From assembly GCA_003142575.1 (NCBI GenBank), contig PLMS01000110.1, positions 11,577-45,440 on the forward strand: DNA of 33,864 bases. The letters run 5' to 3'. Origin of the DNA: Ignavibacteriota bacterium. GTDB lineage: Bacteria; Bacteroidota; Ignavibacteria; UBA10030. Of this stretch, positions 14,401 through 33,239 are shown in pieces (the first letter of the stretch is position 1; each line of letters begins with the position of its first letter). The position numbers were made by a program, and so were the translations under genes. The notes under the pieces are model-generated. The model saw only the letters and a list, made by a program, of their open reading frames with translations. It was not told the origin of the DNA and ran no database searches.

Positions 14401-14624
14401 TCTATTCCGGATACGGCATCTTCAATAACTTTTGAAACATTGTTTTCTACCTCATATGGAGATGCACCGGGGTAAATCGTTTGCACCACGACGACAGGAA
14501 TGGACATTTTTGGAAGTAACTCATAATTCAGCTGGAGGTAACCAAATATTCCCAGCACGGCTATTACCGTAAAAACCACCACTACAAGCGTGGGGCGCTT
14601 AATGGATAATTCAGTAATCGTCAT
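11427..14624 (-). CDS. RND multidrug efflux transporter, HAE1/AcrB-type inner-membrane pump
   Basis: The 1065-residue protein has the usual length and layout of AcrB-type pumps: twelve membrane segments and two large periplasmic loops. The proton-relay residues are present: Asp401-Asp402 in VIGILVDDSIVVLEN and Lys929 in GLVTKNAILIVDR. The N-terminus (ELSIKRPTLVVVVFTVIAVLGIFGY) is typical. The protein would use proton entry to export hydrophobic or amphiphilic compounds through the TolC-like channel encoded upstream. It is the last gene of the tetR-tolC-MFP-RND operon, 21 bp after the adaptor gene. The substrate cannot be told from sequence. Heavy-metal (CusA-type) specificity is unlikely, since the relay residues and length fit HAE1. 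Confidence 0.95.
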   Translation of the reverse strand: MTITELSIKRPTLVVVVFTVIAVLGIFGYLQLNYELLPKMSIPVVVVQTIYPGASPYEVENNVSKVIEDAVSGIDKIDAVSSRSYESMSLVIIEFKQDANIDFAVQDASRKVNAILANLPTDAKTPVVSKIAFDEIPVLKMGVTSQMDSREFFQFLKDRVQPRISKIAGVAQVSLTGGEEREIKVNMDANKVRAYGMSIMQVVQAVRSANMDFPTGKIKDEDAQFVVRIAGKFKSIEDLRDLVVGRSHQGGDVRLRDIAEVQDGIKEYEQMNRVNGRTSVGIQVVKQSDANAVSVSELVRAELQKIQAEYKEQGIIFDIAQDSSTFTIESANAVKKDLLLAVLMVAIVMLLFLHSIRNSLIVLVAIPCSLIATFIFMYALGFSMNMMTLLGLSLVIGILVDDSIVVLENIYHHIEKGEESRSAALRGRNEIGLAALSITMVDVVVFLPLSLVSGIVGQIMRQYALVVVGATLMSLFVSFTVTPTLASRFAKLERLTDRTLLGRFALAFEKLYHRFSDFYQKMLKWALVNKGKVGIGATVIFLLALLIPALGLIGNEFMPQTDRGEFGVSVEFMPGYSVEQTNQAGLQIEKMLSQMPEIKKVFTGVGAQESGSLTLSSNNLVQFNVALIPKENRKKTTSQVGEEIKTKVRQIPGAKVYVNPIGIFGSSDQSAIQIGVNGTDYKLIAQAADQVKNVLSSVEGTTDIRLSSESGKPEMQISIDRAKLAQLGLSVADVGTTLRVALTGDDESKYRDGTNEYDIRIQFDEYNRSRTESIGNITFMNNRGQLIELKQFADVFMTSGPTKLERRDRMSMVNVYAQTLGRPTGTIMQDFKAKIASVRLPTGITISYLGMEKMRGDSFINLFLALLTGILFVYLIMVALYDSYVYPFVVLFAIPMAIVGAMVALAITGKSLSIFTILGIIMLVGLVTKNAILIVDRTIQTRLEQGLSVYDALLEAAKSRLRPILMTTFTMIFGMMPIALSVSPGSEFKSGLAWAIIGGLTSSLFLTLIVVPVVYMKVDEWKEKVPAFFRKPSTLFKRRHNGQEADLKHVPEYIKRTKSSVKMIQ

Positions 14625-14645
14625 TTTATTATTCCTTCTCTCTCA

Positions 14646-15710
14646 TTATTTACGGATTATGACGGGTGCACCGTCGCTCAAATTATTTTGACCGTTGATG
14701 ACGACCTGCTCACCTTCCTGCAAACCGCTCAGAATTTCAATATTGGTTCCCGCCTCTTTTCCTGTTACCACAGAACGAAGTTTCGCTACATTGTTATTGA
14801 CGACGTAGAGCGTTGCGTCCTTTACACTTCCGACAATGGATTCACGAGGTATAACAATCAGATTACCAGCCGACTTTGGTGTGAACACAACCCGCCCAAA
14901 CATTCCGGCTTTTAATTGCAGTTTGGAATTTTTTAACACTACTTCGACAGGATATGTGTGGCCTTCATCCCCCTTAGAAGAAATACTGAAAATGGATCCG
15001 GTGAATACGTCGCTGGGAAATACGTCTGTAGTCACTTCCACTTTTTCACCGACTTTTAAGCGGATCACATCTTTTTCCGCAACATTTAATTTCACTTTAA
15101 GGCGAGAAATGTCCACAACATTTGCTATCGTCGTTGCTTGAGGAGCACCCATCACCATATTCCCTATATTTACATTACGAGCTGTGACAATGCCAGAGAT
15201 GGGAGTCGTAATTTTTGTGTCGCTTAATTGACGTCGCGCAACAATGTACTGTGATTCTGCCGACTGATAACTCCATCTTGCTTGCTCAATTTGAGAATCA
15301 GAAATAGATCCCTCTTTATAAAGTGCCTCATATCGTTCAAGATCCTTTTTTGCTTTTTCGTAGGTCACATCTGCTGCCTTATATGCGGCTTCTTTAAGTT
15401 CGCTGTCTACTTCTACCAGTACCGACCCGGCTGGTTTGTAATCTCCGACTTCAGCATCCACTTTTACCACACGCCCTGATGTTTCGGAAACCACCGCCAC
15501 ATCATTATACGCCACAATTGTACCGACTTGTGAAAAGCTATCAGTTACTTCTTTCCTTGTCGCTGTTATAACGGAAACAGAGTAAGATGTTGCAATTGTT
15601 GCGGTTGCACTATTTTGCCTGTCACTTTTCGCATTGTTACACGAATAGAAGCCAAATACGAGAGCGACCAGCACCACTCCTAAAGTAATATATTTCATTG
15701 TTGTATTCAT
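14646..15710 (-). CDS. RND efflux periplasmic adaptor (membrane fusion protein), lipoprotein
   Basis: This 354-residue protein starts at ATG 15710 with an AAGGAC ribosome site. The N-terminal hydrophobic segment ends in GFYSC (Cys24), a slightly unusual lipobox. The order that follows is that of AcrA-like adaptors. There is a first half-lipoyl segment (GRVVKVDAEVGDYKPAGSVLVEVD), an alpha-hairpin (about 105-150), a second half-lipoyl segment (TKITTPISGIVTARNVNIGNMV), then beta-barrel and membrane-proximal domains ending in GLQEGEQVVINGQNNLSDGAPV. It bridges the RND pump and the TolC-like channel. It lies 30 bp after the channel gene and 21 bp before the pump gene, fully consistent with one operon. 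Confidence 0.94.
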   Translation of the reverse strand: MNTTMKYITLGVVLVALVFGFYSCNNAKSDRQNSATATIATSYSVSVITATRKEVTDSFSQVGTIVAYNDVAVVSETSGRVVKVDAEVGDYKPAGSVLVEVDSELKEAAYKAADVTYEKAKKDLERYEALYKEGSISDSQIEQARWSYQSAESQYIVARRQLSDTKITTPISGIVTARNVNIGNMVMGAPQATTIANVVDISRLKVKLNVAEKDVIRLKVGEKVEVTTDVFPSDVFTGSIFSISSKGDEGHTYPVEVVLKNSKLQLKAGMFGRVVFTPKSAGNLIVIPRESIVGSVKDATLYVVNNNVAKLRSVVTGKEAGTNIEILSGLQEGEQVVINGQNNLSDGAPVIIRK

Positions 15711-15740
15711 TGTCCTTATCCTTTTAGTAATAATTTATAA

Positions 15741-17099
15741 TTACTCACCTATCGCTCTGGAAAGCTGCGCGATGGCGAGTTCATAATCGACTAATGATTG
15801 TGTTAAATTTAATTTTGCCTGAAGCAATGCTACTTCTGCATCAAGCAATTCGGAATTTGCGACAAGGCCTTGTTTGTATATCCCGTCTGTCATGCGGTAA
15901 TTTTCTTCTGCTTGACTGACGCCCTGTTCCGAAACAATCTTTCGTTCTTTTGCTTTTTGAATATTCAGATAGCTTTGCGTCACTTCTAACGTAATGCCGT
16001 CCTTCGTCATCGAAAGCCCTTCTTGCGCCTGCGCCAATTGCGCCTGCGCCTGCGTTGTTTGATGTCCGGTCTGGTTCCAATTCCAGAGATCAAACGAAAC
16101 CGCCACTGATACATCCCATGAATCTTTGAAATCATCGGTTGCAGGGAAATAACGCTGATTCGGCCTATTGTAATTATAATTTCCAACTAAATAAATTTGC
16201 GGCCACCATCCACCGCGTGCCGACGTTAATCCTGCTTGGCTTGCTTTTACGCGAGCATCCATACCTAACATTTCCGGGCGTTTTTCAAATGCAGATTTAA
16301 TCAATTGATCTGCAGGCGCCCAATCTCGATCTGTAATGTTGATGGTAGAAGAGAGTTCTATTTCCGTTTGCAGCGGAAGCCCCAGTGTATTATTCAACAT
16401 ATACATCGCCAGTTGCACGTTATTTTTTGCATCGATCTGACGCACCAACGCATCAGAAAGTTGAACACGAACTTTCATCACATCGTTTTTCGTCAACATT
16501 CCTTGCTTAAAAAGATTTTCAGCATCAACAGCATGTGATTTTATTTGATCGACGTTTTCATCTATAAATATTTTGAATTCGATGGCACGGTACAAATTCC
16601 AATACGCCGCTTTGATGTTGTACAGAACATCCGCTTGATCTTTTTTATGATCTTCTTGTGTCGCTTTTGCTGCATACTCCGCAGCATCGATAGCACCGGA
16701 TATTTTACCGCCAGTGAACAACGGCTGCTGCAACGTTGCTTTCAAGCCATAATTATTAACGATGTCCGACGTCAATGGATAATTCATGGTCTGAAATTGA
16801 ACTATATTGGTCGAAGGGTCATTGATTCCATATACCGGGAACGGAAGCGTCAATGCCGGAACAGGGCTCAATCTTGTGTATGTCCCGTTAAATTTCAAAG
16901 ATGGCAATCCAAGCGTATTCACCTCGCTCGCTTTTGCATCCGCCGCCTGCACTTGAAATTGCGATGTACGGAGTGCTTTGCTGTTTTCCATTCCTGTTTG
17001 AATGGCTTGTTCAATAGTAAGTGTAAGTTTTTGTTGTGCCCGCACAGGCAGTGTAAGCAAAGAAATTAATATGAGTATTGTCGTTAATCGTTTTGTCAT
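15741..17099 (-). CDS. TolC-family outer-membrane efflux channel
   Basis: The 452-residue protein starts at ATG 17099 behind a GAGGAAAC ribosome site and has a signal peptide ending at PVRAQ. It shows the two-fold repeated TolC pattern. Each half has long amphipathic helices (for example YNIKAAYWNLYRAIEFKIFIDENVDQI and VTQSYLNIQKAKERKIVSEQGVSQAEENYRM) and short beta segments. The C-terminal NSELLDAEVALLQAKLNLTQSLVDYELAIAQL is a recognisable TolC/OEP ending. It forms the trimeric outer-membrane exit duct of the efflux system. It sits 39 bp after tetR in the operon. Confidence 0.95.
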   Translation of the reverse strand: MTKRLTTILILISLLTLPVRAQQKLTLTIEQAIQTGMENSKALRTSQFQVQAADAKASEVNTLGLPSLKFNGTYTRLSPVPALTLPFPVYGINDPSTNIVQFQTMNYPLTSDIVNNYGLKATLQQPLFTGGKISGAIDAAEYAAKATQEDHKKDQADVLYNIKAAYWNLYRAIEFKIFIDENVDQIKSHAVDAENLFKQGMLTKNDVMKVRVQLSDALVRQIDAKNNVQLAMYMLNNTLGLPLQTEIELSSTINITDRDWAPADQLIKSAFEKRPEMLGMDARVKASQAGLTSARGGWWPQIYLVGNYNYNRPNQRYFPATDDFKDSWDVSVAVSFDLWNWNQTGHQTTQAQAQLAQAQEGLSMTKDGITLEVTQSYLNIQKAKERKIVSEQGVSQAEENYRMTDGIYKQGLVANSELLDAEVALLQAKLNLTQSLVDYELAIAQLSRAIGE

Positions 17100-17138
17100 C
17101 GTTTCCTCTTATGTAAAGATATATTGTCGTATAAACTT

Positions 17139-17813
17139 TTATCCGCGATTCAATCCTGCAAATTCAGCACGCACGCGGTCGGTAAGAATGGATTCAAATA
17201 ACAATTTATTAGATATTTCAAGCGCGTGCTCTAAATCGATATTCATCCGCTCTTTCCAAGTATCGCCTTCGCTGTCAACCCGCAGCAGGAGCGCTGTCGC
17301 GCTCGACCAGAGTATAATGGCAACTTCAACCGGATTGAGATCCGAACGAAAAGCACCCTCTTCCATTCCGCGCCTCAATAATCCAATCATCAAATCCCAC
17401 ATTTTCCTGCTTTCCACACTGCATGCCTGCCTCATCTCTTCCGACACCTGTTTGTGAAATTGTGGCGCCTGTAAAAAATGAAACATTCGAAAAAAACTCC
17501 GATGAGAGTGAAAGAAATTTTTATAGGTATCGCCAAACTTCGCTAACTTTTGAACAGAAGTATCATTTGAAGAAACGATGGGTTCATAAATTTTGTAAAG
17601 CACTTCCATGCCGCGCATCATCACAGCAAGATACATGTCCTCCTTGCTCTTGTAGTAAAGATACAGTGTCCCTTTGCTCAACTCTGCCGCTTCGGCAATT
17701 TCATCCATTGTAGCTGTTGTAAGTCCTTTTTCAAAAAAGAGTTTCTGTGCTGCATCGAGAATCTCCTCTTTTCTATGCTCTTTTTCGCGTTCTTTTCGCT
17801 CTGTTATACCCAC
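17139..17813 (-). CDS. TetR/AcrR-family repressor of the efflux operon
   Basis: The 224-residue protein most likely starts at a GTG (17811-17813), preceded by AAAGGTG. The N-terminal DNA-binding domain (about 10-60) is a clear TetR helix-turn-helix: EEILDAAQKLFFEKGLTTAT, then MDEIAEAAELSKGTLYLYYKSKEDMY. The rest is an all-helical ligand-binding domain. It is the first gene of the operon that also encodes the channel, adaptor and pump. It therefore probably represses its own promoter and is released by a pump substrate. The operator-like dyad at 17833-17845 lies just before its start. The inducer is unknown. Confidence 0.94.
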   Translation of the reverse strand: MGITERKEREKEHRKEEILDAAQKLFFEKGLTTATMDEIAEAAELSKGTLYLYYKSKEDMYLAVMMRGMEVLYKIYEPIVSSNDTSVQKLAKFGDTYKNFFHSHRSFFRMFHFLQAPQFHKQVSEEMRQACSVESRKMWDLMIGLLRRGMEEGAFRSDLNPVEVAIILWSSATALLLRVDSEGDTWKERMNIDLEHALEISNKLLFESILTDRVRAEFAGLNRG

Positions 17814-21379: not shown

Positions 21380-24300
21380 CTATCTTGCATTATACGACGC
21401 CAGGATGCGGCCGTTCTTTCCGATAAGAAGCAACGCTGCTCTTCCGGGTGCGAGTTTCACCCGGAAATCTTCACCGCTCAGCTTATCACGAAATGTCACA
21501 GGAGCAGTGCCTGCGCTTTCAGATGTTAGAACATACAATGTTGCATCTGGTAATTGTGTCGGACAGATTAATATTCCGGGATCTTCACATGAAGTTTCAT
21601 ACACGGCGCCGACTCCCGCACGTTTCATTGCATACTTATAGATGCGTCCGACTTCATCAAGTTGATCTGCTAACTCGAGCGGCAGTGCGGAGTAAAGTAT
21701 TCGACCTGCACCGTACGAGAATTCAATGAAAGTCCTGTCGTCTTTCAGCACACCGCGCTCTCCATAAGTTATTCTATCGCCGGAATAACTCAAATGTATT
21801 GCGCCTGCCGGAGATTTTATTTCTACTTCACGTGTTGTCAATGCTGCTGAGGTATATTCTATGTTCCAATCTTTTATCCTGTCAGGAATCGAAACCCAAT
21901 GTTCGTCTGCATCAATTTTTCCGGAAATGAGAAGCGTCGCTCCTGCTTTTACTTTTCGCATAAGAATATTCCACGCATCTTGATTGAACACCCATGGGGC
22001 AGGAACGATAATTAACTTTACATCAGGCATTTGTGAAAGTTGATATTCACCGACAACAAATGCTGTTGCACGTGCGTGATGATACAACGCCCGTACAGCG
22101 TTTTGTTGAACAGCGAGTCCCCAGCTTCCGAAGACCGAGAGCTGTAATGACTGAGGAAGCACTAATGCGACATCGGGTAATTTCGTTTCGGTTGCATACG
22201 CCTGAGCATCTCGTGCGAAGGAAGCAATCCCTTTTATGACATTCATCCATTGTTTCTGGGAGCCGTCGCGACGTAGGAGACCATACGTATCGCTTCTTGT
22301 CCAGTCCCATTGCAATACACCTGTGTTAGCGGCAAAGCCGAGTGCTAACTTTCTTTCTAACAACGGCATTCCCTGAAGATCATCCCATCGCCAGGATCCG
22401 TCCATTGACCAAACAGGCTGTGGTCCGGTTTCACCGATGAGATTCGGTTTGATCAAACATTTTGCGGCGACAGAACTCCAGAGAAGTGCATCATCGCGCC
22501 ACCAAGTGTGATTCACGGTGTAGTTTACATGGGATTCTGCCCAGAATTGGTTCAAGACACGGTCAGCTACACCGCCTTCATCCTGTCCGACTGTGACTGC
22601 TTGTCGTGCCCCGGTTGCATGGATTGCATAGATAATTGTATCGACCCAATGACGGAATGACTCCTGTGCAAATAGATTGTAGTCAACCGCGTGCACCGTA
22701 CGAAAATTTCCGGAGCGTACTAATTCAAGATCATTAAAAGAAGGAAGTGGTACTTTATCGAATGCACCAAACTCGGTAGTTGGAATGCGCCATCCCTGTG
22801 CAAGTTTATCGAAAGTTGTGTATCGTTTTTCCAGCCAATGGTGCCAGGCGTTTAATTCAACGGGATCACCATTCGGCGAATTTCCTTTCCAGATTCGTTT
22901 GGGATTGGAATAACTCGGTTCATTGATGAGATCGAAACTCAGGAATGGTACATTTCGAAACCGGGAAACTATTGTCTGTACGTAGGTGATCTGCGATTCA
23001 ATTGCGACCGGATCCAGATAGGGATTGGATCCTGGTCCCAACAGATCTCCTTCCTGTCCTGGTCCGGCTTCCATTTCATTTTGTGGATTGAAGGCAAAGA
23101 AAGTAAACACTACTTGCATGTGATGCCGCGCTGCTGCACAAAGGTACGCCTCGATGGCGTTCAGCAAGCGTTCTTCCGCCGTCCCGGTTACCAAGTCTAA
23201 ATAGCGCGCACGATTAAGCCAGATGCCAGTACGCACGGCAGTAATACCCTGCCGTTCCATCTCTGCAAAGTCCTTTTCCCAGCCCCAAGCATTTCCGCCG
23301 AGACTGCCTCCGACAAAAAAGTTGGATGTGTAGGGATCGGTTGAAAAATAATTTGTTCCGACCATTAAATATGGTTTTTTCCCGATACGGAAATAATCAC
23401 GCTCTGCTCCGAGCGGTTCACCTGAATGTAACAGGACCGAATCGCGGACTGATAATCCGGATGTGTATCGTTCGAAGATTGTGTCTCCAATACTTAATGT
23501 TGCCCTAACTCTATACAGTCCGGGATTATTCAATGGTTGTTTAATATTAATCTCTTCGTGTAGAGAATTGCTGCAGTTCATCGTCCGCGCGGCAAGAATA
23601 TTAGAACCGGAAAGTAGTTCAAGGGTTATCTTCGCGGGTGCTCCTGCTCGCAGCACATCGACAATACCCGAAATGTGCTCGCCGGATTCGAGTGTAAGTT
23701 TTTGGAGATCGATCCAGATGCGTATGGCTCCTCGAGATGCGTACATTGCTGCCTGATATATTAAATCAATTCCATTTTTGGAATTCCAAAAACTCGAATC
23801 CGCTTCGAAGCTGAGATACAGACGCCGTTGTCGCGGCAAACCACGGCCAATCAAATCTTCTGCTGATACAGGAGCTGCAAGACGATTGCCAAGCGAATCA
23901 ATCAGGAAACCAAGGCCGCGATATCTTTCGCCGTATCCTGCATTCACAAAAACTCGCTGAGGGTTCAAAGAAATGTCATGGAAGTACGGCGCATCTTCAT
24001 CCCATTGTAAACTCCATGGACCACGCTGTGGCACGGCATACGAATGCAGTATACCGAGATAACGTGCAAAAGTATTTTGCGGATTTTCGATGCGCCAGTT
24101 GGTACTATCCTTATACACAGGGACAAAGAAAGGCCTACCGCCGAGAACGAGCAAATTGCCGCGATTGAGATATAACTGTATTGTGTCCCATGCATCGGCA
24201 GGAAATGCTGAGCCGTACGGAAGTATAAACAGATCGCAATCATCCAAAGAATTTTTCTTCAACAGTTCAGCAAAGCCGATAAATTGCGGATTCAACGGTG

Positions 24301-24442
24301 ACAGCGCCTGTTCGAGCACACGCCTATCGATTCTACTGTTGTCAATAGTAGGAAAGTCTTTTTCATAAAACACTATTGTCTTGCTTAGGACAGTAGAAAT
24401 GTTGATTAGAAAAAAGGCAGCAAATAGAGATACATATCGCAT
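21380..24442 (-). CDS. Large secreted clan-A glycoside hydrolase, candidate exo-mannanase/beta-mannosidase
   Basis: The 1020-residue protein starts at ATG 24442 (GAGGAA site, signal peptide MRYVSLFAAFFLINISTVLS); an upstream ATG at 24472 is less likely. Domains in order are as follows. First is an N-terminal flavodoxin/GATase-like segment (about 20-170; LFILPYGSAFPADAW). Next comes a beta-sandwich region (about 220-330), then a TIM barrel beginning near YLMVGTNYF (about 345). The barrel has acid/base Glu508 in FDLINEPS and probable nucleophile Glu671 in LIGETGPQPVW. A GATase-like beta-galactosidase-trimerisation-type domain (about 790-880; LIIVPAPWVFNQDAW) and a C-terminal beta domain complete it. 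The barrel is GH5/GH2/GH42-like, but I cannot assign a family. Context suggests action on beta-mannan or its oligosaccharides. Confidence 0.75.
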   Translation of the reverse strand: MRYVSLFAAFFLINISTVLSKTIVFYEKDFPTIDNSRIDRRVLEQALSPLNPQFIGFAELLKKNSLDDCDLFILPYGSAFPADAWDTIQLYLNRGNLLVLGGRPFFVPVYKDSTNWRIENPQNTFARYLGILHSYAVPQRGPWSLQWDEDAPYFHDISLNPQRVFVNAGYGERYRGLGFLIDSLGNRLAAPVSAEDLIGRGLPRQRRLYLSFEADSSFWNSKNGIDLIYQAAMYASRGAIRIWIDLQKLTLESGEHISGIVDVLRAGAPAKITLELLSGSNILAARTMNCSNSLHEEINIKQPLNNPGLYRVRATLSIGDTIFERYTSGLSVRDSVLLHSGEPLGAERDYFRIGKKPYLMVGTNYFSTDPYTSNFFVGGSLGGNAWGWEKDFAEMERQGITAVRTGIWLNRARYLDLVTGTAEERLLNAIEAYLCAAARHHMQVVFTFFAFNPQNEMEAGPGQEGDLLGPGSNPYLDPVAIESQITYVQTIVSRFRNVPFLSFDLINEPSYSNPKRIWKGNSPNGDPVELNAWHHWLEKRYTTFDKLAQGWRIPTTEFGAFDKVPLPSFNDLELVRSGNFRTVHAVDYNLFAQESFRHWVDTIIYAIHATGARQAVTVGQDEGGVADRVLNQFWAESHVNYTVNHTWWRDDALLWSSVAAKCLIKPNLIGETGPQPVWSMDGSWRWDDLQGMPLLERKLALGFAANTGVLQWDWTRSDTYGLLRRDGSQKQWMNVIKGIASFARDAQAYATETKLPDVALVLPQSLQLSVFGSWGLAVQQNAVRALYHHARATAFVVGEYQLSQMPDVKLIIVPAPWVFNQDAWNILMRKVKAGATLLISGKIDADEHWVSIPDRIKDWNIEYTSAALTTREVEIKSPAGAIHLSYSGDRITYGERGVLKDDRTFIEFSYGAGRILYSALPLELADQLDEVGRIYKYAMKRAGVGAVYETSCEDPGILICPTQLPDATLYVLTSESAGTAPVTFRDKLSGEDFRVKLAPGRAALLLIGKNGRILASYNAR

Positions 24443-24640
24443 AAAGTATTCCTCTATAGCAAGAGACATCAAATGATGTAACGCAAATCGTAATGTACAA
24501 AATTAAGATAGCGAATAAATTAAATAACTCCAATCTAAGAATGTTCGGATACAATGAGGAAAATGAAATTATACGCATGTTTAAAATGTTCTGTGCTTAG
24601 TATATACAACAAGCCAGAAAATGAAATAACGATTCCTATA

Positions 24641-24669
24641 TTGACAATCGCGATGTAACAGAGTATATT
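24641..24669 (+). promoter_or_regulatory. Near-consensus sigma70 promoter of the 608-aa secreted protein
   Basis: TTGACA (24641-24646) and TATATT (24664-24669) are 17 bp apart. The distance from the -10 to the GTG start is about 32 bp. The divergent gene at 24442 must have a separate promoter in the AT-rich stretch 24443-24640, which I could not define. Confidence 0.65.
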
Positions 24670-24701
24670 TCCGACAGAATAATTTCTAAGGAGAAGTAAC
24701 C

Positions 24702-26528
24702 GTGGCTCATATTCCAAATTCCGTACGCAATTTTGTTGTATTCATGTTTTTGCTGTTCTTAACAATACCTCATGTTCATGCTCAGCCGGCAACCGTCTGG
24801 CAAAACCTGAAGTATGCTATCTATTTTACTTCGCACGATGTCGATTCGCTTCTCGCCGATCCTGATCGATTTAAAAAGACAATGGAATACTTTGCTCCTG
24901 TGAAACCGGTGCATGTATATCTTGAAGGAACGAGTCATGGAGAAGTAAATATCCCGCTCCTAAAAAACCTTTCAGATAAATTCAAGTCGATAGGTTTAAA
25001 GGTTTCCGGTGCATTAGTCCCGGTCGGACATCAAGGTCCATCCGTCTACAATAACCCCGAAGATATGGCAGCACTTGAGAAACGGGCACGCTCGTTAGCA
25101 CAGGTATTCGATGACATCATTCTCGACGATTGGCTTTTTACGACTGCCACAGATTCAAAAAGTGTTGCCGATCGCGGTAATTTGAGCTGGGCTGCATACC
25201 GCACAAAACTGCTTCTGGATCAATCCAAGAAATATATCATCGATCCGGCAAAAAAGGTAAATCCGAAAGTAAGGATCACCATTAAATATCCGAATTGGTA
25301 CGAAGGGCATCGAGAAAACGGATATGATGTGTATCATGAAACTTTACAGTATGATAATATGGCCGTTGGTATTGAGACCCGCAACCGGATGATTCACGAT
25401 CAACATATTCCCATTTACAGCAGCTACGTATTTCAGAAGTGGTGGTCAAGCGTCGATTCAAAAAAATGGATCGGCTCGTGGTTGGACAACTACGAAATGA
25501 AAGGCGACTCAAACGACTACGTTGCGCAGGTGTGGCAGGCAGTTTTCGCGCAAACTCCGGAAATTATTCTTTGGTGTGCCGGTCAATTGTATCCGACAAA
25601 TCCATCCAGCGATGTGTACCACCACTTCATAACAATGCTGCCGGATTTTGATAAGGTAGCTGGAATGTTAAAAGGCGAACAGCGTGGAATCCCGATTTAT
25701 CTCCCGTACGGTTCCACGGGCGAATATAATATATTCGGATATCTCGGCATGGCGGGGATTCCACTTATACCTGTTGCGCAATTCCCAAAAGACAGCCGGA
25801 GTGCAATTTTCACACTGCACTCCATTGCTGAGAGCGCAACCGGACGCGATACGAATCTTGCAAACGAAATGCTCGAACGACTTCGGAATGGAAAAGATGT
25901 TTTTATGACATGGCAGCTCTGGAAAAAACTTCAGAATGCAGAATTCAAAAATACATTAAACCTCCTGCCGGGTATTGAAGGCAGTGTAACATCCGATGCA
26001 TTCCGCCTGCGCGAAGGATGGTTCCGAAAAGAGATATTCAAGTCTGACAAACCGTTCACATTTCAAAAAATCGAAACGACTACATGGCCGGAAGTACGGG
26101 ATGTTGCAGTGGAACGAGACGACTATGATTTCGGAGTGCTCTTACATATCCCCTATCTTAAGGGAAATATTTACATTTTGAATATGCCAGATAATAGTTA
26201 CGACCTGTTGCGCTTGCCTGCACAAGCACTGAATCTTATTCGACGCGCATTCAACGAAGAATTAGGATTTGAGTTGGATGGACCGGGGGGAACAGGCATG
26301 TATTTATTTGGCAGCAAACAATATGTTCTTTATAATATGAGTGATGAAACGGCAGTCATGAAACTACGGTTTGATCAATCATCTTCCAACGGTTGGCAGG
26401 AACTTCTCAACGGAAAAGAATTAAAAGTGAATCAAGACACAACATTCGTTCGCCATGGCGGTCCAGTCATAACAGATGTTTCTGTCGAACTGAAGCCTTT
26501 CGAGGTTGCCGTTATTCAGGCGCCATAG
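24702..26528 (+). CDS. Secreted protein of unknown family, possible new glycoside hydrolase
   Basis: This 608-residue protein starts with GTG at 24702 behind AAGGAGAAG and has a signal peptide ending VHAQP. I do not recognise the family. About residues 30-330 read like a TIM barrel: strand-like segments NLKYAIYFTSHD, VHVYLEG, VSGALVPVG, DDIILDDWLF (Asp142, Asp143), VRITIKYPNWYEG, NMAVGIETRN, IGSWLDNYEM (Asp262, Glu265) and EIILWCAGQL. Acidic residues sit at strand ends, as in retaining hydrolases. About 330-450 resemble a GATase-like domain (GIPIYLPYGSTGEYN; EMLERLRNGKDVFMTW). The last 150 residues are beta-rich. This three-part layout recalls GH42-type enzymes. Location between two glycoside hydrolase genes in a mannan locus supports a carbohydrate-active role, but no catalytic residue is proven. 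Confidence 0.6.
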   Translation: MAHIPNSVRNFVVFMFLLFLTIPHVHAQPATVWQNLKYAIYFTSHDVDSLLADPDRFKKTMEYFAPVKPVHVYLEGTSHGEVNIPLLKNLSDKFKSIGLKVSGALVPVGHQGPSVYNNPEDMAALEKRARSLAQVFDDIILDDWLFTTATDSKSVADRGNLSWAAYRTKLLLDQSKKYIIDPAKKVNPKVRITIKYPNWYEGHRENGYDVYHETLQYDNMAVGIETRNRMIHDQHIPIYSSYVFQKWWSSVDSKKWIGSWLDNYEMKGDSNDYVAQVWQAVFAQTPEIILWCAGQLYPTNPSSDVYHHFITMLPDFDKVAGMLKGEQRGIPIYLPYGSTGEYNIFGYLGMAGIPLIPVAQFPKDSRSAIFTLHSIAESATGRDTNLANEMLERLRNGKDVFMTWQLWKKLQNAEFKNTLNLLPGIEGSVTSDAFRLREGWFRKEIFKSDKPFTFQKIETTTWPEVRDVAVERDDYDFGVLLHIPYLKGNIYILNMPDNSYDLLRLPAQALNLIRRAFNEELGFELDGPGGTGMYLFGSKQYVLYNMSDETAVMKLRFDQSSSNGWQELLNGKELKVNQDTTFVRHGGPVITDVSVELKPFEVAVIQAP

Positions 26529-26556: not shown

Positions 26557-26587
26557 GGGTATGATCCGGTTATTTTGGATCGTACCC
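26557..26587. other. Hairpin spanning the stop codon of the GH5-like gene
   Basis: GGGTATGATCC (26557-26567) pairs with GGATCGTACCC (26577-26587), 11 bp with one G-U, and the TAA stop of the minus-strand gene lies in the loop. There is no T-run after it on either strand, so it is not a canonical terminator. It could act as a 3'-end stabiliser between convergent genes. Confidence 0.45.
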
Positions 26588-28390
26588 AATTTCTAATCTG
26601 CCAAGCTGCATGCCATCATTCAACATAATTTTAATATACCGATGATTCGCGGGAATGTTCTTTGTTGTGTAACGGACCGGACAGAAAAACCGATACTCAT
26701 TCGCGAATGGTTCATAAATTTCTTTTGACGTTGACAATGGCATCGTGCTATTGGGAGAGTCTCCGCTGAAGAAGATTAAATTATTGTCTCGATTCTCTGT
26801 CGTATAAAAAGCATCTACCTGCACTGAAGTCATTTTTTCTGGGAGCTTATATATTATGTACTCTCCGAATTTTCCAATAACCCTGGATTTATCTTCCTTT
26901 GCTCTTACTGTAGATTCACGGTCAGTGGAAAATGTAATGCCCTCTGATTTTTCAAACATACGATTATCATCGTTGAGATCATCGATAAGGATTCTACACG
27001 GTGCACTCACAGGGCCGACAACATCCGATGGTTCGGATACGCCTGACTCATTTTTAGCTAATATCCTATAAGAATACGTTACACCAGGAATGGAGGTGGT
27101 GTCGGAATAAAGCGGACGATACGCGATTGTTGCATCGCTTGCATTGCTATCCACAACGATCCATGGTGACGATGAAAGAGAATCTCTTATTTGACGTTCA
27201 AGAATATATCCAAATGCCCCCGCAGATCCCTGCCATGAGATTTTGTACGGCGTTTCAACCGGCAGGAATTTTGGCTTTGCAGGAACCGATATCGGTGGTT
27301 TAGGGATGCCGCTCATTTGAAACGCCTTGTCTCTAAAGAGCTGCACAATATTTTTTTCGTCTGATGTGTTGGTCTCAAATCCAGGCCAATGAAAAGAAAG
27401 TGTGTGATACAAGAATCCTCCGTCTCGATCATGCTGGCGCAAGCTCCAGATCATGATGCCGGAAATTCCGGATGATATCACAGAATCTAAAACCTCCCTC
27501 ACATCATCAGCGGTATACCCGCCGAACTCTCCAACAAAGTATGGCTTCACACCTTTCGTTTTTACACGTGCTTCGAGCATATACTTAATAATTTGTTTTG
27601 TCGGACGGTAATAGTGCGTGGAAAGCACGTCGATGTTCGTATCGGCAAGCGCTTCATCATGAATAACCTGACTATGTGTTCCCTCGATTACGAGATGATT
27701 TTTATCAAGACTTTTTATATACGCTGCAATATTTTTTGTCCAGCTGTAATCGGGAGTGACTAATTCATTTCCCGTTTCCCATCCCAAAATGGCTTTATCT
27801 TCTTTGTAGGGAACTCCGGTATAAGTATTAACACGATTGATGATGAAGTGAATTGTTTTTTTGAAGTCGTTGATAAGAACGGTATCCGTCCAGAATGTTT
27901 CTCTCGACTTCCCGCGGAATAGCGCATATTCCGTGACGCCACCCCACCATTTCCAGTTATCGATAAGCGGCACGATGATACGAATTCCAACTTCGTTTGC
28001 TATTTGCAATGCCTTATCCATCGACCTGAATGCTTCTTCATCGAATACTCCCGGCCCATAAACATGTCTGATGATGCTTGCATCATCCATCGCTTTTCGC
28101 AAAGACGGCGTATACATCCGTGTTACTTGTCCGCCTATTTGCTTTATCGATGTCAGTGCATCGCGAATTTCGAATTCATCCGGAAGCCGAAACGGATTGC
28201 GTTTATCAAACACCAGATCATCTTCGATGTATTGGAGATTCGGTATATTGAAGGAGATAAATCGTAATTCCTTGCTGCCTGTCATAAGTGTATCGCCATG
28301 CGCAGTAACGAAATCTGTAAATTGAGCACGCACAGTTTGAAATATTGTTAAAACGAGGACGAATGAAAAAATCAAAAATTTAGATTTCAT
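26570..28390 (-). CDS. Secreted GH5-like endo-beta-mannanase candidate with FN3 and C-terminal beta domain
   Basis: The 606-residue protein has a signal peptide ending TVRAQ. Residues about 25-365 form a clan-A TIM barrel. The acid/base is Glu209 in GWETGNELVT, and the nucleophile is Glu288 in PYFVGEFGG. An aromatic platform is visible (DNWKWWGG). Fungal-type GH5 mannanases share this layout, and mannan is the logical substrate given the mannobiose-handling genes next door. A fibronectin type III module follows (about 375-470; PYKISWQGSAGAFGYILERQI, then YSYRILAKNESGVSEPSD). The last 135 residues are a beta-rich domain that may bind carbohydrate. It is convergent with the 608-aa gene and divergent from the epimerase gene. 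Other beta-1,4-glycanase specificities cannot be excluded. Confidence 0.8.
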   Translation of the reverse strand: MKSKFLIFSFVLVLTIFQTVRAQFTDFVTAHGDTLMTGSKELRFISFNIPNLQYIEDDLVFDKRNPFRLPDEFEIRDALTSIKQIGGQVTRMYTPSLRKAMDDASIIRHVYGPGVFDEEAFRSMDKALQIANEVGIRIIVPLIDNWKWWGGVTEYALFRGKSRETFWTDTVLINDFKKTIHFIINRVNTYTGVPYKEDKAILGWETGNELVTPDYSWTKNIAAYIKSLDKNHLVIEGTHSQVIHDEALADTNIDVLSTHYYRPTKQIIKYMLEARVKTKGVKPYFVGEFGGYTADDVREVLDSVISSGISGIMIWSLRQHDRDGGFLYHTLSFHWPGFETNTSDEKNIVQLFRDKAFQMSGIPKPPISVPAKPKFLPVETPYKISWQGSAGAFGYILERQIRDSLSSSPWIVVDSNASDATIAYRPLYSDTTSIPGVTYSYRILAKNESGVSEPSDVVGPVSAPCRILIDDLNDDNRMFEKSEGITFSTDRESTVRAKEDKSRVIGKFGEYIIYKLPEKMTSVQVDAFYTTENRDNNLIFFSGDSPNSTMPLSTSKEIYEPFANEYRFFCPVRYTTKNIPANHRYIKIMLNDGMQLGRLEIGYDPK

Positions 28391-28487
28391 AATATTCTGA
28401 ATCTATTTAATGTATCATTGATTCGTTTTTAGAGACAATTTACATGCCCAAAACAAGAGATAGAATGACGGTATTAAGCAACAGTAT

Positions 28488-28509
28488 TGAACCTCAAATA
28501 ATAGGTTCA
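28488..28509. repeat. Inverted repeat TGAACCT-N8-AGGTTCA in the divergent GH5/epimerase interval
   Basis: Seven-bp perfect arms (28488-28494 and 28503-28509) flank an AT-rich 8-bp spacer. The position between two divergent mannan genes fits a regulator site. No regulator gene is in the window to match it. Confidence 0.35.
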
Positions 28510-28604
28510 GGTTATTAAATTAAGAAGATTTATCAATTTCATAGGGGAAACAATAATCTATAAATGAAAAACAAGATATATCCGTTTTAGTTATGCACAT
28601 ATTT

Positions 28605-28619
28605 ATTCCTTAAAGGAAT
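28605..28619. repeat. Palindrome ATTCCTT-A-AAGGAAT upstream of the epimerase gene
   Basis: A perfect 7-bp-arm palindrome centred on one base lies 27 bp before the epimerase start. It could be an operator overlapping the leader. The shorter repeat TCCTT-N6-AAGGA occurs at 33450-33465, before the esterase gene. Confidence 0.35.
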
Positions 28620-28645
28620 GGCATATCTATTGATACAGATTTGTC

Positions 28646-30013
28646 ATGATGGAATCTGTCATAAATATAATGGGTAAAACCCAATTCATTATTAAAGAAT
28701 TTGAAGACGTTCTTCTGAACGGAATCGTCAATCGATGGTATCCACTCGTTATTGATAAAGAATGCGGCGGATATTTTACGAATGTTTCATACAACTGGAA
28801 AATTTTGCCCGATCAAGAAAAGATGATCGTTTCACAGGCAAGGCACATATGGACATTGGCAAAAATCTCGAAATATTTTGGTGGCAAAGAATACTACGAT
28901 GAAATGGCATGCCACGGTTTTCAATTCTTAAAACAAAAAATGTGGGACAGTGACTATGGAGGGTTTTGTCAAATCCGTAGTCGCGAAGGAACGTGCACAA
29001 GTGTCAATGGCTGGAGGGATGAAAAGCGAACGTACGGAAATGCATTCGGTCTCTATGCACTCGCGGCACTGTACGATCGGTTTCATGATCCGGAAGTGTT
29101 AGAATTCGCTAAGAAGGTATTTTACTGGATTGAAGAACATGCATTCGATACAAAACATCTTGGGTACTACGAGTTCTTGACACGCGATGGAAAGCCATTC
29201 GATTGTTCATCCCCTTATAAAACTATTGCATTAGATAGTAATGAATTAGGATTCAAAGACCAAAATTCTTCCATTCATTTGCTCGAAGCATATACGGAGT
29301 TGTATCGTGTTTGGAAAGACCCGTTGCTTCGGAATCAATTGAAATCACTCTTGGAGCTTATTCGCGACAAGTTGGTGGCTGAACGCGGATATTTGCAGCT
29401 CTTTTTTCAAAATGACTGGACGCCGGTTTCTTTTCGCGATGCATCCGAAGAAGAACGAAAAGCGAATTTCGGTTTAGATCATGTTTCGTTTGGTCACGAT
29501 TATGAAACAGCTTTTTTAATGTTAGAAGCATCCTATGTGTTGGGTCTTCCTGATGATAGAAGGACATTGGCTGTCGCAAAAAAAATGCTGGATCATGCAA
29601 TAGCTAACGGGTGGGATGAATCTGTGGGCGGGTTTTATGACGGCGGTTATTATTTCTCTGGTTCCGATACATGTTCCATTGTGAAGGATACAAAAAATTG
29701 GTGGGCGCAGGCGGAAGGGTTAAATGCATTATTGTTGTTTTCGAAAATCTTTCCAGATGAATCCCGGTACCGTACATATTTCAAACGGGAATGGAATTAC
29801 ATAAAAACCTACATTCTCGATCCTGTTTACGGAGATTGGTTTGAGGGAGGCATCGACAAGGAGCCGCAGTTTAAAGAAGGCCCCAAAAGCCATATGTGGA
29901 AATGCACTTACCACACCTGCCGTGCGCTCATGAATTGCATTGCGATGATGAACAATGATGCAGATGCAGAGATCAACCGTGTCATTGCGCACTGGCGAAA
30001 AATTAGCGAGTGA
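28646..30013 (+). CDS. Cellobiose/mannobiose 2-epimerase (AGE family)
   Basis: The 455-residue protein has no signal peptide and is cytoplasmic. Candidate starts are ATG 28646, 28649 and 28670; ribosome sites are weak, so the first is kept provisionally. It is an (alpha/alpha)6-barrel protein of the acylglucosamine/cellobiose 2-epimerase family. Visible motifs are ARHIWTLAKIS, the histidines in SSIHLLEAY (His211), GHDYETAFLMLEA (His284) and KSHMWKCTYHTCRA (His416), and WWAQAEGLNALLL. The three histidines match the catalytic set of characterised cellobiose 2-epimerases in order and approximate spacing. The enzyme epimerises the reducing-end sugar of beta-1,4-disaccharides. Beside a GH130_1-type phosphorylase the likely reaction is mannobiose to mannosyl-glucose. 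It is convergent with the phosphorylase gene. Confidence 0.88.
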   Translation: MMESVINIMGKTQFIIKEFEDVLLNGIVNRWYPLVIDKECGGYFTNVSYNWKILPDQEKMIVSQARHIWTLAKISKYFGGKEYYDEMACHGFQFLKQKMWDSDYGGFCQIRSREGTCTSVNGWRDEKRTYGNAFGLYALAALYDRFHDPEVLEFAKKVFYWIEEHAFDTKHLGYYEFLTRDGKPFDCSSPYKTIALDSNELGFKDQNSSIHLLEAYTELYRVWKDPLLRNQLKSLLELIRDKLVAERGYLQLFFQNDWTPVSFRDASEEERKANFGLDHVSFGHDYETAFLMLEASYVLGLPDDRRTLAVAKKMLDHAIANGWDESVGGFYDGGYYFSGSDTCSIVKDTKNWWAQAEGLNALLLFSKIFPDESRYRTYFKREWNYIKTYILDPVYGDWFEGGIDKEPQFKEGPKSHMWKCTYHTCRALMNCIAMMNNDADAEINRVIAHWRKISE

Positions 30014-30081
30014 TTTTTACATCAATAAACTGAAGTCAGGATGGAGGGATGCGCTATCATTCACCATTTATTCGGACCAAG

Positions 30082-31323
30082 TTATTCCTTTAAATCGTTC
30101 TTAACTTTTACCGACACTCGCCGCGCTAGCATCATCGATTTCTTTTTCAGTATTTCCAAATTCTTTTTAATGAGTTGTATGCGTTGCTGAACATTGACCG
30201 CAGATCGAAGCCCGTCTTCAGGAGTATTCAGAACATAGTCCAGAAGCTTATCGATAGTCGAAACAGCAACGTGCATTCGCGTATCCGATGAACCGTAATA
30301 AATAAATACTTCGCCGGATGCACGCTTGACCCATCCATTACTGAAAACAACATTCGATACATCACCTACACGTTCATCATTTTCAGGTGCGAGGAAATAT
30401 CCACCGGGAGAAGCAATTACTTTTGCAGGATCTTTTAAGTCGGTGAGGAATAAGTACAACACGTATCGAAGTCCGGCTGCGGTATTTCGTACTCCGTGTG
30501 CCAATTGAAGCCAGCCCTTTTCTGTTTTTATGGGTGCCGGGCCTAATCCATTTTTTACTTCTTTAATAGTATGATAGAGCCGGTCATCGATAATAATTTC
30601 GTCGTGGATGACACTGTGTTCTATGTCATTACTTACACCCCAGCCAATGCCGCCGCCGGAGCCAGCTTCGATAAATCCATCCTGCGGCCTTGTGTAAAAG
30701 GCGTATTTGTCATGAACAAATTCCGGATGAAGTACAACATTTCTCTGCTGCGGTGATTTCGTTACGAGGTCCGGCAAACGCTCCCATGTCAGCAGGTCTT
30801 TTGTTCTGACGATACCGCATTGTGCAATGGCAGTAGAGGTGTCGGTTCTTTGTGCATCCGGATCTTTTCGTTCTGTGCAGAAGAGTCCGTAGATCCAGCC
30901 ATCTTCGTGTTGTACCAAACGCATATCGTATACATTAATATCCGGATCTTTTGTCTCCGGTATGACGACGGGATAATTCCAGAACCGGAAATTATCTATT
31001 CCGTTTCGGGATTCTGCTATTGCAAAAAACGATTTCCTGTCGTTGCCCTCTACGCGCACCATGAGCAGTATTTTATCGTCATGTTCAATGGCTCCGGAAT
31101 TAAATGTGCCGTTAATTCCCATTCGCTCCATCAACTGAGGATTTGTTTTACAGTTTAAATCGTACCGCCAAAACACCGGTGTATGTGCCGCGGTAAGTAC
31201 TGGATGCGTATATCGAAGGAATATACCGTTATCGTGTTTGCTTTTTACATTCTTTCGGCAAATGAGCTTTTTATGTTCCGCAAAAAGTTGCCGGACTCTT
31301 TTATTGTATTCAGACTTTTGCAT
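30082..31323 (-). CDS. GH130_1-type 4-O-beta-D-mannosyl-D-glucose phosphorylase
   Basis: The 413-residue cytoplasmic protein starts at ATG 31323, 2 bp after the symporter stop, with an AAAGGATAT ribosome site. It has the five-bladed propeller signatures of GH130: [20 protein letters not shown], then [20 protein letters not shown] with the catalytic acid Asp133. Later blades include VVLHPEFV and [14 protein letters not shown]. The [11 protein letters not shown] stretch and the long [27 protein letters not shown] segment are those of subfamily 1, known from the Bacteroides fragilis mannosylglucose phosphorylase. It would convert mannosyl-glucose and phosphate to mannose-1-phosphate and glucose. 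A mannooligosaccharide phosphorylase (GH130_2) is less likely. It is cotranscribed with the transporter. Confidence 0.9.
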
Positions 31324-31325
31324 AC

Positions 31326-33239
31326 TTATATCCTTTCGGGAGCATCAAGAGCAACATTCACCGGTGCGAGATCTTGCGGAACAAGATATTTTTGTGGAAT
31401 ACTCTGTTTGATGCGTTGATCAAAATCTTCTGGAAGCGTTTCTTTGCTTAACTCGTCCAGTTTATTCCACCAGTTAAATTTAAGAATGATAGACGTAATA
31501 ATAACGCTAGATATTGCACCAATAAAAAGCGTATGTTCTTGAATGACTAATGCAATAGCAGATACGACGAGCGATGTTTGCCAGATGACGCCGACAATGA
31601 CGTTGGTCATGTCCGTTTTGAAATTGTGGTTCGGCTCGAACTCCGGATAATAGAAATGAACTTTTTTAATAACAGGTTTCCAGAATCCCCACGGTCGGAT
31701 TTGCATGTAAAATTTCATCAGCACGGCATCTTCTTCCGGCTCTGTTAGCAAGCTGCCAAGGATACATCCCACTAATGAAATTCCGAGGACCACCGGGAAC
31801 ATATTGATAGCGGGAAGAGCAGGGAATGTAAGCGGGATGATCATCGATGCGGCGATTCCGGTCATCATCCCCCAGAAATATCCATGCCCATTAATTCTCC
31901 ACCAATACCATTTTAAAACATTCGATGCAGTGTACCCCCCGTAGAGTGCACTGACAATCCAGAGCGTTACTTGATTGATCGACTCGACAAAAAATCCGAA
32001 AATAAATCCAACGATAACAAAACCAATCGTTGCAAGAATGCTTAAGCGAACGTACACTTTTTCTTCTGCATGTGGATTGATAAATCGTTTGTAAATATCG
32101 TTGACGACGTACGCCGGTGCTGCATTAATGGTAGCGGCGTAGTTGGACATAAACGCAGCGATTAAACCTGCAAGGAGAAGACCGACTAACCCAACCGGGA
32201 GTGTATTCTTGATGATGTACGGAAGAATCATTTCAAAATCGATATTTGGCCCCATCAATTTTAATTGCGGAGAAAAATAAACAAGTGCCAGAACGGTAAT
32301 TCCGGTAATCATTAAATAACGCGGAACGCAAAGGACAATGTTCACGAACCAATTCATCTTTGCTGCATCTTTTGGAGACCGTGTGGCAAGCACGCGCTGC
32401 ATATCGTAATTGGGAGCCGGTCCTGCTGCGCTTTTGAGGATTCCCTGGAACAAAACCATGATAAAGAAAAACCCGAAAATGCCATACCCGTCTTGTGCTA
32501 TCTTGGTGTTGACGGCATCGATCAATCCGGTCCAGTTTAGATTTAAATGCCATCCGAAAAATGGCGAAGCCCACCCGTTAGGAATAAGTTGATGTAATTG
32601 TTCCGGTGTAACCGCATGGATAGCAAGAATGCCAATAGAAATTGATGCAATCGTCAATACAATAAATTGGAGGAATTCCGTAATGACGACACTAAACATT
32701 CCTCCCTTTACAGCATAGATCGCAGTCAAAGACATCAAGATGATTGCATACATATCGGGAGATAAATTCCATGGAAAAAAGATTGCCGCGAATTTACCGA
32801 TCCCTTTAAACGCATATGCAATGAATCCGATAACGCTTACAAGCGCAAAAATCACTACACTGATATGCGAGAGGTTTGCACCGGTACTTGTTCCGAATCG
32901 TGTCTGAATCCATTGTGCACCGGTCATTACTTTCGATTTTCGAAGCCAGATAGAAAGGTATGCCATCAAAAATATTTGATTGAATGTGGGCCAGATCCAG
33001 GGAAGCCAAACGCTCTTCAATCCATAAACAAAAAGTACATACACTAACCACATAGTGCCGGTTATGTCAAACATACCGGAGGCATCGGATACACCTAATA
33101 TCCACCACGGCAGCGTATTGCTGCCAAGGAAGTATGAATGAAGACTCTCATTTGCTCGTTTGGAGACGAGGATTCCTAAAAAAATTGCTGTGCAGAAATA
33201 ACCTATAATAATACATAAATCAAGTGTTGAAATAATCAT
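31326..33239 (-). CDS. Sodium/solute symporter (SSS family), putative mannobiose/mannooligosaccharide importer
   Basis: The 637-residue protein starts at ATG 33239 (weak ribosome site). I see about 13-14 hydrophobic segments with SSS/SGLT landmarks. These are the N-terminal [30 protein letters not shown], the middle [31 protein letters not shown], and the region [30 protein letters not shown], which lies near the sodium-binding site of this family. A longer hydrophilic loop follows TM12 (about residues 495-540), then a final membrane pair. It should use the sodium gradient. Position directly upstream of the GH130 gene, 2 bp apart, makes a mannose-containing disaccharide the best guess for substrate. 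No SusC/D, TRAP or ABC system is present. Confidence 0.88.

Follow-up and report, generated by a model that had tools for sequence, protein, structure and literature searches.

The window analysed here, a 33,864-nucleotide stretch of DNA from an Ignavibacteriota bacterium, contains an open reading frame on the forward strand (positions 24702 to 26528) that begins with a GTG start codon and encodes a protein of 608 amino acids (aa). The gene is present as a single copy in the 3.28-Mb genome that holds the window, and a genome scan and a tree place its nearest relatives in Ignavibacteriota. Because full-length relatives that are 26 to 70% identical align with it, the frame is real far beyond chance. 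An AAGGAG ribosome-binding site (24688 to 24693, forward strand) lies 8 bases upstream of the GTG, and a consensus scan found a putative promoter, TTGACA-17-TATATT, at 24641 to 24669 on the same strand. Its 11 of 12 consensus matches were reached in 19 of 2,000 shuffles of the intergenic stretch, and the predicted site therefore stands mildly above chance. The first 27 residues (24702 to 24782, ending in HVHA before a Gln) are hydrophobic by eye and by hydropathy, form a helix in the model described below, and probably constitute an export signal peptide. A preliminary description of this DNA had named the frame, a signal peptide, and a near-consensus promoter, and all three were found again, the last as a putative site.

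The same description had placed the gene between two glycoside hydrolase genes. Carbohydrate-enzyme genes do lie on both sides. On the downstream side, a GH5 beta-mannanase-like gene (26570 to 28390, reverse strand) was identified by profile and by PDB sequence match. On the other side lies a gene for a 1030-aa protein (21380 to 24472, reverse strand) whose only Pfam matches, to GH42 and GH5, are weak. PDB sequences contained no relative of this protein, which may be a further glycosidase that is poorly described. Beyond the GH5 gene are an AGE epimerase (28646 to 30013, forward strand), for which the nearest model is cellobiose 2-epimerase (150 bits, with a cut-off of 800), a GH130 enzyme of the 4-O-beta-mannosyl-glucose phosphorylase type (30082 to 31323, reverse strand; 585 bits to 3was), and a sodium/solute symporter identified by profile matches (31326 to 33239, reverse strand). 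Judged by sequence, the set from 26570 to 33239 resembles the known pathway in which mannan is used by way of an epimerase and a phosphorylase. Elsewhere in the window, the reverse strand of 11427 to 17813 carries efflux genes next to a TetR regulator. They encode a membrane-fusion protein, an outer membrane efflux protein, and a 1065-aa protein whose gene clusters with similar loci.

The 608-aa protein had no match in Pfam-A at E values up to 1, PF14871 (GHL6) included. The 60 family members that we aligned gave only scattered, low-scoring chance matches, and PF14871 is absent among the 25 of 26 Pfam families listed for them. The GH42 models PF02449, PF08532, and PF08533 and the GHL10/GH153 model PF02638 were likewise missing from the matches of the query and from the families listed for the 60 members. 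In NCBIfam, the sole match of the query was to a DNA-3-methyladenine glycosylase (E = 0.03; 13.9 bits, cut-off 229), an identity that was dropped, as so weak a match was taken as chance; the 60 members gave scattered matches, none better than E = 0.003. Among PDB sequences, nothing was found below E = 0.5 for the query, whose three weak matches were also taken as chance, or below E = 0.06 for the family profile. That profile did not retrieve the GH151 structure 6TVK at E values up to 10, and within the same limit the GH164 enzyme Bs164 gave no PDB sequence match. In the literature, we found no named family that fits the description of the protein, and a plasmid search returned nothing. The preliminary description could likewise place the protein in no named family, and the best reading of these searches is that the family is new relative to Pfam and NCBIfam, the CAZy and dbCAN models lying outside the comparison.

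A scan of one genome per species recovered at least 344 encoded relatives among the matched stretches, with hosts in Bacteroidota, Ignavibacteriota, Verrucomicrobiota, Bacillota, Chloroflexota, Planctomycetota, Acidobacteriota, and archaea. The alignment of 60 members contained 33 invariant columns, including D142, D143, K195, N198, E201, E225, R227, W260, D262, and E341. A tree of the same members splits at its base into two sides, both with full support. One, of 22 rows, includes the query and consists of Ignavibacteriota, Bacteroidota, Verrucomicrobiota, and one Acidobacteriota, and the other, of 38 rows, comes from Bacillota, Bacteroidota, and others. Since the positions at which the two sides differ (residues 76, 106, 224, 256, 291, and 337) are found close to strand ends and within domain B, specificity may differ between them. 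Hydropathy indicates a hydrophobic N terminus in most members outside Firmicutes; most Firmicutes members and the Brockarchaeota member begin at the barrel and are presumably cytoplasmic. Three family copies appear to be split between frames (G009:C35:14045-15746, G050:C69:179115-180889, and L022:6001-7711), as decayed genes or assembly errors would be.

AlphaFold modelled both the query (pLDDT 91.7, pTM 0.90) and a relative from Caldicoprobacter that is 28% identical (L042:5992-7707; pLDDT 93.5, pTM 0.92) with confidence, and both models consist of a TIM barrel, a Rossmann/GATase-like middle of the GH42 trimerisation type, and a beta-rich end. The barrel, the GATase-like middle, and the beta-rich end had been proposed from the sequence. 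In the query, these correspond to domain A (about aa 30 to 300; 24789 to 25601), domain B (about aa 326 to 520; 25677 to 26261), and domain C (about aa 522 to 608; 26265 to 26525), all on the forward strand. In structural alignments, the query model matched both GH42 5E9A (Z = 20.9, 514 residues, rmsd 4.8) and GH164 6T7G (Z = 19.5, 522 residues, rmsd 4.5) along the whole chain. The Caldicoprobacter model aligned over 492 residues with GH42 1KWG (Z = 21.9, rmsd 4.7), over 513 with GH164 6T7G (Z = 21.1, rmsd 3.9), and over 526 with the GH151 fucosidase 6TVK (Z = 19.5, rmsd 4.3); Z values within one unit of each other are tied here, and a common fold says nothing on function. The structural comparison that the preliminary description had suggested thus yielded a confident TIM barrel with acidic residues. 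The top row of a Foldseek search, rhamnosidase 6Q2F, superposed poorly (rmsd 10.9, TM 0.39) and was rejected. A GH42-type homotrimeric build is also known from a different family, in the GH5 exo-beta-mannosidase Op5Man5 (PMC8233224), which matched with Z = 18.2 (query) and 19.6 (Caldicoprobacter model). Unlike the family, Op5Man5 has the clan-A Glu pair and lacks domain C.

Profile-profile comparison points to remote homology with two named families. Domains B and C matched the same domains of GH42 with E = 6.4e-8 and a score of 60.6, where 26 unrelated profiles reached at most 24.0. The barrel matched a set of GHL6 proteins with E = 1.3e-6 and a score of 56.9, where the same 26 profiles reached at most 24.6, and the full length matched that set with E = 4.5e-6 over 515 columns. 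This set represents GH151, as shown by the 459-bit match of its first member to 6TVK. It was drawn from Firmicutes because the phylum's best GHL6 match, in L162, appears to carry Asn in place of the catalytic Asp. This Bacteroidota GHL6 protein (L162:1-2055, reverse strand) reads GIFLNMPGY at the place of the GH151 catalytic Asp and is possibly inactive or a different enzyme. The family profile also matched a GHL6 frame in genome G367 (E = 6.8e-5). Identity between the family and GH151 in the profile alignments is 13 to 16%, and strands 5 to 8 alone gave no match to GH151. In the same comparison, the barrel reached only the control level against GH42 (score 22.6). The barrel alone superposes best on the GHL10 protein Cwp19, with Z = 21.5 for the query and 23.0 for the Caldicoprobacter model, the highest barrel-only values, and GHL10 shares the DD after strand 4; the profile similarity to GHL10 was weak (score 29.1, E = 0.006), and GHL10, which we compared together with GH153 (PgaB), was rejected as the source of the barrel in favour of GH151. 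The family therefore appears to be a new one inside a known superfamily, a remote homologue of GH151 in its barrel and of GH42 in its middle and end.

In the GH151 fucosidase ALfuk2 (6TVK), the nucleophile D154 ends strand 4, the acid/base E235 ends strand 6, and H503 from a neighbouring chain completes the active site (PMC10154630). The family shares with it the barrel, the three-domain build, and the strand-4 Asp. D142, which together with D143 ends strand 4 (codons at 25125 to 25130), pairs with D154 in all four MAFFT modes. E225 (25374 to 25376) is invariant and lies at the end of strand 6 in the model, as E235 does in GH151, and the spacing from Asp to Glu is 83 residues in the query (D142 to E225), 81 in 6TVK, and 82 in L187. 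Sequence aligners do not pair E225 with E235, so their equivalence is drawn from strand order. From these observations, we infer that D142 and E225 are more likely to be the catalytic pair than D142/D143 with D262/E265, the residues to which attention had first been drawn. Among the latter, D142, D143, and D262 (25485 to 25487, end of strand 7) are invariant in all 60 members and E265 is not conserved; the invariant K195, E201, and, most importantly, E225 had been overlooked. D262 may help in the pocket.

An alternative is a clan GH-A-like exo-beta-glucosidase or beta-mannosidase, which would remove backbone glucose or mannose with D142/D143 and D262 replacing the two Glu. D143 and D262 do end strands 4 and 7, the places of the Glu pair in GH42 and GH164, and the match to the GH164 beta-mannosidase Bs164 extends over 513 to 522 residues and three domains. 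Bs164 is a trimer with the catalytic Glu pair E160 and E297 (PMC7105311), a pair without counterpart at strands 4 and 7 of the family. GH42 is similar to the family in whole-chain fold and in domains B and C, but where it has a catalytic Glu, on strand 4 and on strand 7, every one of the 60 members has Asp, and neither strand end holds a Glu. Together with the strong profile similarity of the barrel to GH151 rather than to GH42, this weakens D143 and D262 as a clan GH-A pair, and we consider such an enzyme fairly unlikely.

Most family members also share with GH151 a cluster of cysteines. Of the 60 members, 47 have all four of C115, C149, C151, and C154, 10 have none, and 3 have half of them. 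The CxCxxC stretch and the Cys that precedes it are in register with those of a GH42 protein of locus L036 and of GH151 proteins. In GH42, such cysteines bind zinc, and the cluster, similarly placed, would be like a metal site. The query belongs to a set of eight members without all four (support 100/98), and the corresponding place, aa 149 to 154 (25146 to 25163, forward strand), has lost the motif in the query and its close kin.

Two features set the predicted pocket apart from that of GH151. The CHHG stretch that follows strand 2 in GH151 is absent from the family, and strand 5 ends in an invariant K(Y/F)PNWYE (aa 195 to 201; 25284 to 25304) instead of HNAGH or YNGGH. These differences disfavour a plain alpha-L-fucosidase, that is, a diverged GH151 enzyme releasing L-fucose from substrates such as fucosylated xyloglucan. 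The homology of the barrel and the aligned nucleophile would suit such an enzyme, as would the xyloglucan loci described below and the sugar-acid-like context of a pair of loci, L143 and L144, with its dehydrogenases, enolase-type dehydratase, and RraA-like aldolase. However, the L036 locus already encodes a GH29 fucosidase, and the neighbours in the window are of the mannan type, and this activity seems to us unlikely. The invariant Lys at the end of strand 5, in the company of invariant E201, E225, and R227, is unusual for a glycosidase and raises a further alternative, that this scaffold serves as a lyase, isomerase, transglycosylase, or sugar-binding protein. Many Bacteroidota members lack neighbours for carbohydrate degradation, which would also fit. 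With the GH151 nucleophile position invariant, and with glycosidases and sugar transporters as the operon neighbours in Firmicutes, a non-hydrolase is quite improbable.

Those operons are found in Bacillota and in one Chloroflexota genome. There, the family gene is grouped with genes for ABC permeases and a 580-aa lipoprotein, and with a GH31 alpha-xylosidase that scores 887 bits to MeXyl31 and a GH74 xyloglucanase identified at 241 bits; the L036 locus also has GH42 besides the GH29 fucosidase. A GH31 gene lies within 10 kb of the family gene in 8 of 20 genomes, against a chance expectation below 1, estimated from about three GH31 genes per genome of about 3 Mb in genomes that are neither independent nor randomly drawn. 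No GH3 beta-glucosidase gene lies within 10 kb of the family gene in the 20 genomes. The characterised xyloglucan cluster of R. cellulolyticum contains GH31, GH3, and GH42 (PMC4780118), so a glucosidase would seem to be missing from these operons, a role that the clan GH-A-like enzyme could fill. Against this, GH3 genes are present elsewhere in all 20 genomes. The lipoprotein (L042:1990-3759, with relatives in L036, L039, L053, and L063) is conserved and adjoins the ABC permeases. It has no Pfam or PDB sequence match; the xyloglucan-binding Athe_2052 has the PDB entry 9PMY (PMC12710961). Given its size and location, the lipoprotein probably binds the solute for a xyloglucan importer.

Both clades have members with a cellobiose-2-epimerase-like gene nearby (this window, L005, L006, L010, L064, L074, L076, L143, and L144); for the epimerase-like genes scanned, the nearest model is cellobiose 2-epimerase, yet all fall below its cut-off. 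In 3 of 15 genomes, a GH130 gene lies no more than 10 kb from the family gene. Both enzymes act on beta-1,4 disaccharides, a further point for a backbone-cleaving beta-glycosidase. Other Bacteroidota loci have mixed neighbours, and the gene neighbourhoods of the family differ from those of GH151.

Taken together, the computed fold, kinship, conservation, and gene neighbourhoods describe a family that most likely serves the breakdown of xyloglucan, mannan, and similar sugars of plant cell walls, and its best reading is as a sister of GH151. Counted against this reading are the low identity to GH151, the lack of a listed GHL6 match, the missing CHHG, the GH29 enzyme of L036, the failure of sequence alignment to pair E225 with E235, and the many Bacteroidota members without carbohydrate-degradation neighbours. 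For the 608-aa protein itself, we infer, at roughly even confidence, a glycoside hydrolase of GH42 build that is exported, exo-acting, and probably trimeric, is remotely akin to GH151, has no name in Pfam or NCBIfam, and trims hemicellulose oligosaccharides. The preliminary description, partly confirmed in its observations, had read the protein as a candidate new glycoside hydrolase family. That interpretation is partly supported, in that the family is unnamed, has the barrel, and occurs in carbohydrate contexts, but it is not isolated, having kin in GH151 and GH42.

Under the GH151-related reading, the enzyme would follow a retaining two-step mechanism, in which D142 attacks the sugar, E225 donates and then removes a proton, and domain B of the adjacent chain helps shut the pocket. 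It would cut a terminal, probably alpha-linked sugar from oligosaccharides of the xyloglucan or galactoglucomannan type, with the query working in the periplasm and the Firmicutes enzymes in the cytoplasm. The proposed alpha linkage follows from the GH151 kinship and from the rule that other barrels in which this strand-4 Asp is the nucleophile belong to alpha-glycosidases.

We hold more tentatively that the family is absent from CAZy and that its pocket, with K(Y/F)PNWYE and GxETR, is not that of GH151 and has a new specificity, for example, for a decoration shared by xyloglucan and galactoglucomannan. If true, this would join xyloglucan import operons to the cellobiose-2-epimerase/mannosylglucose-phosphorylase route. 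Because several members lie in xyloglucan operons of cultivable thermophiles such as Thermoanaerobacterium and Caldicoprobacter, a single assay could both identify a step in the breakdown of hemicellulose and establish a family. The joining of a GH151-like barrel to a domain B and a domain C of the GH42 type is also relevant to kinship among the trimeric glycosidases.

A further type of context is found at L143 (10669 to 18428) and L144, where a family member is accompanied by an AraC-type response regulator, two short-chain dehydrogenases, an epimerase, ABC permeases, an RraA-like aldolase, and an enolase-superfamily dehydratase, a locus that resembles a sugar-acid pathway.
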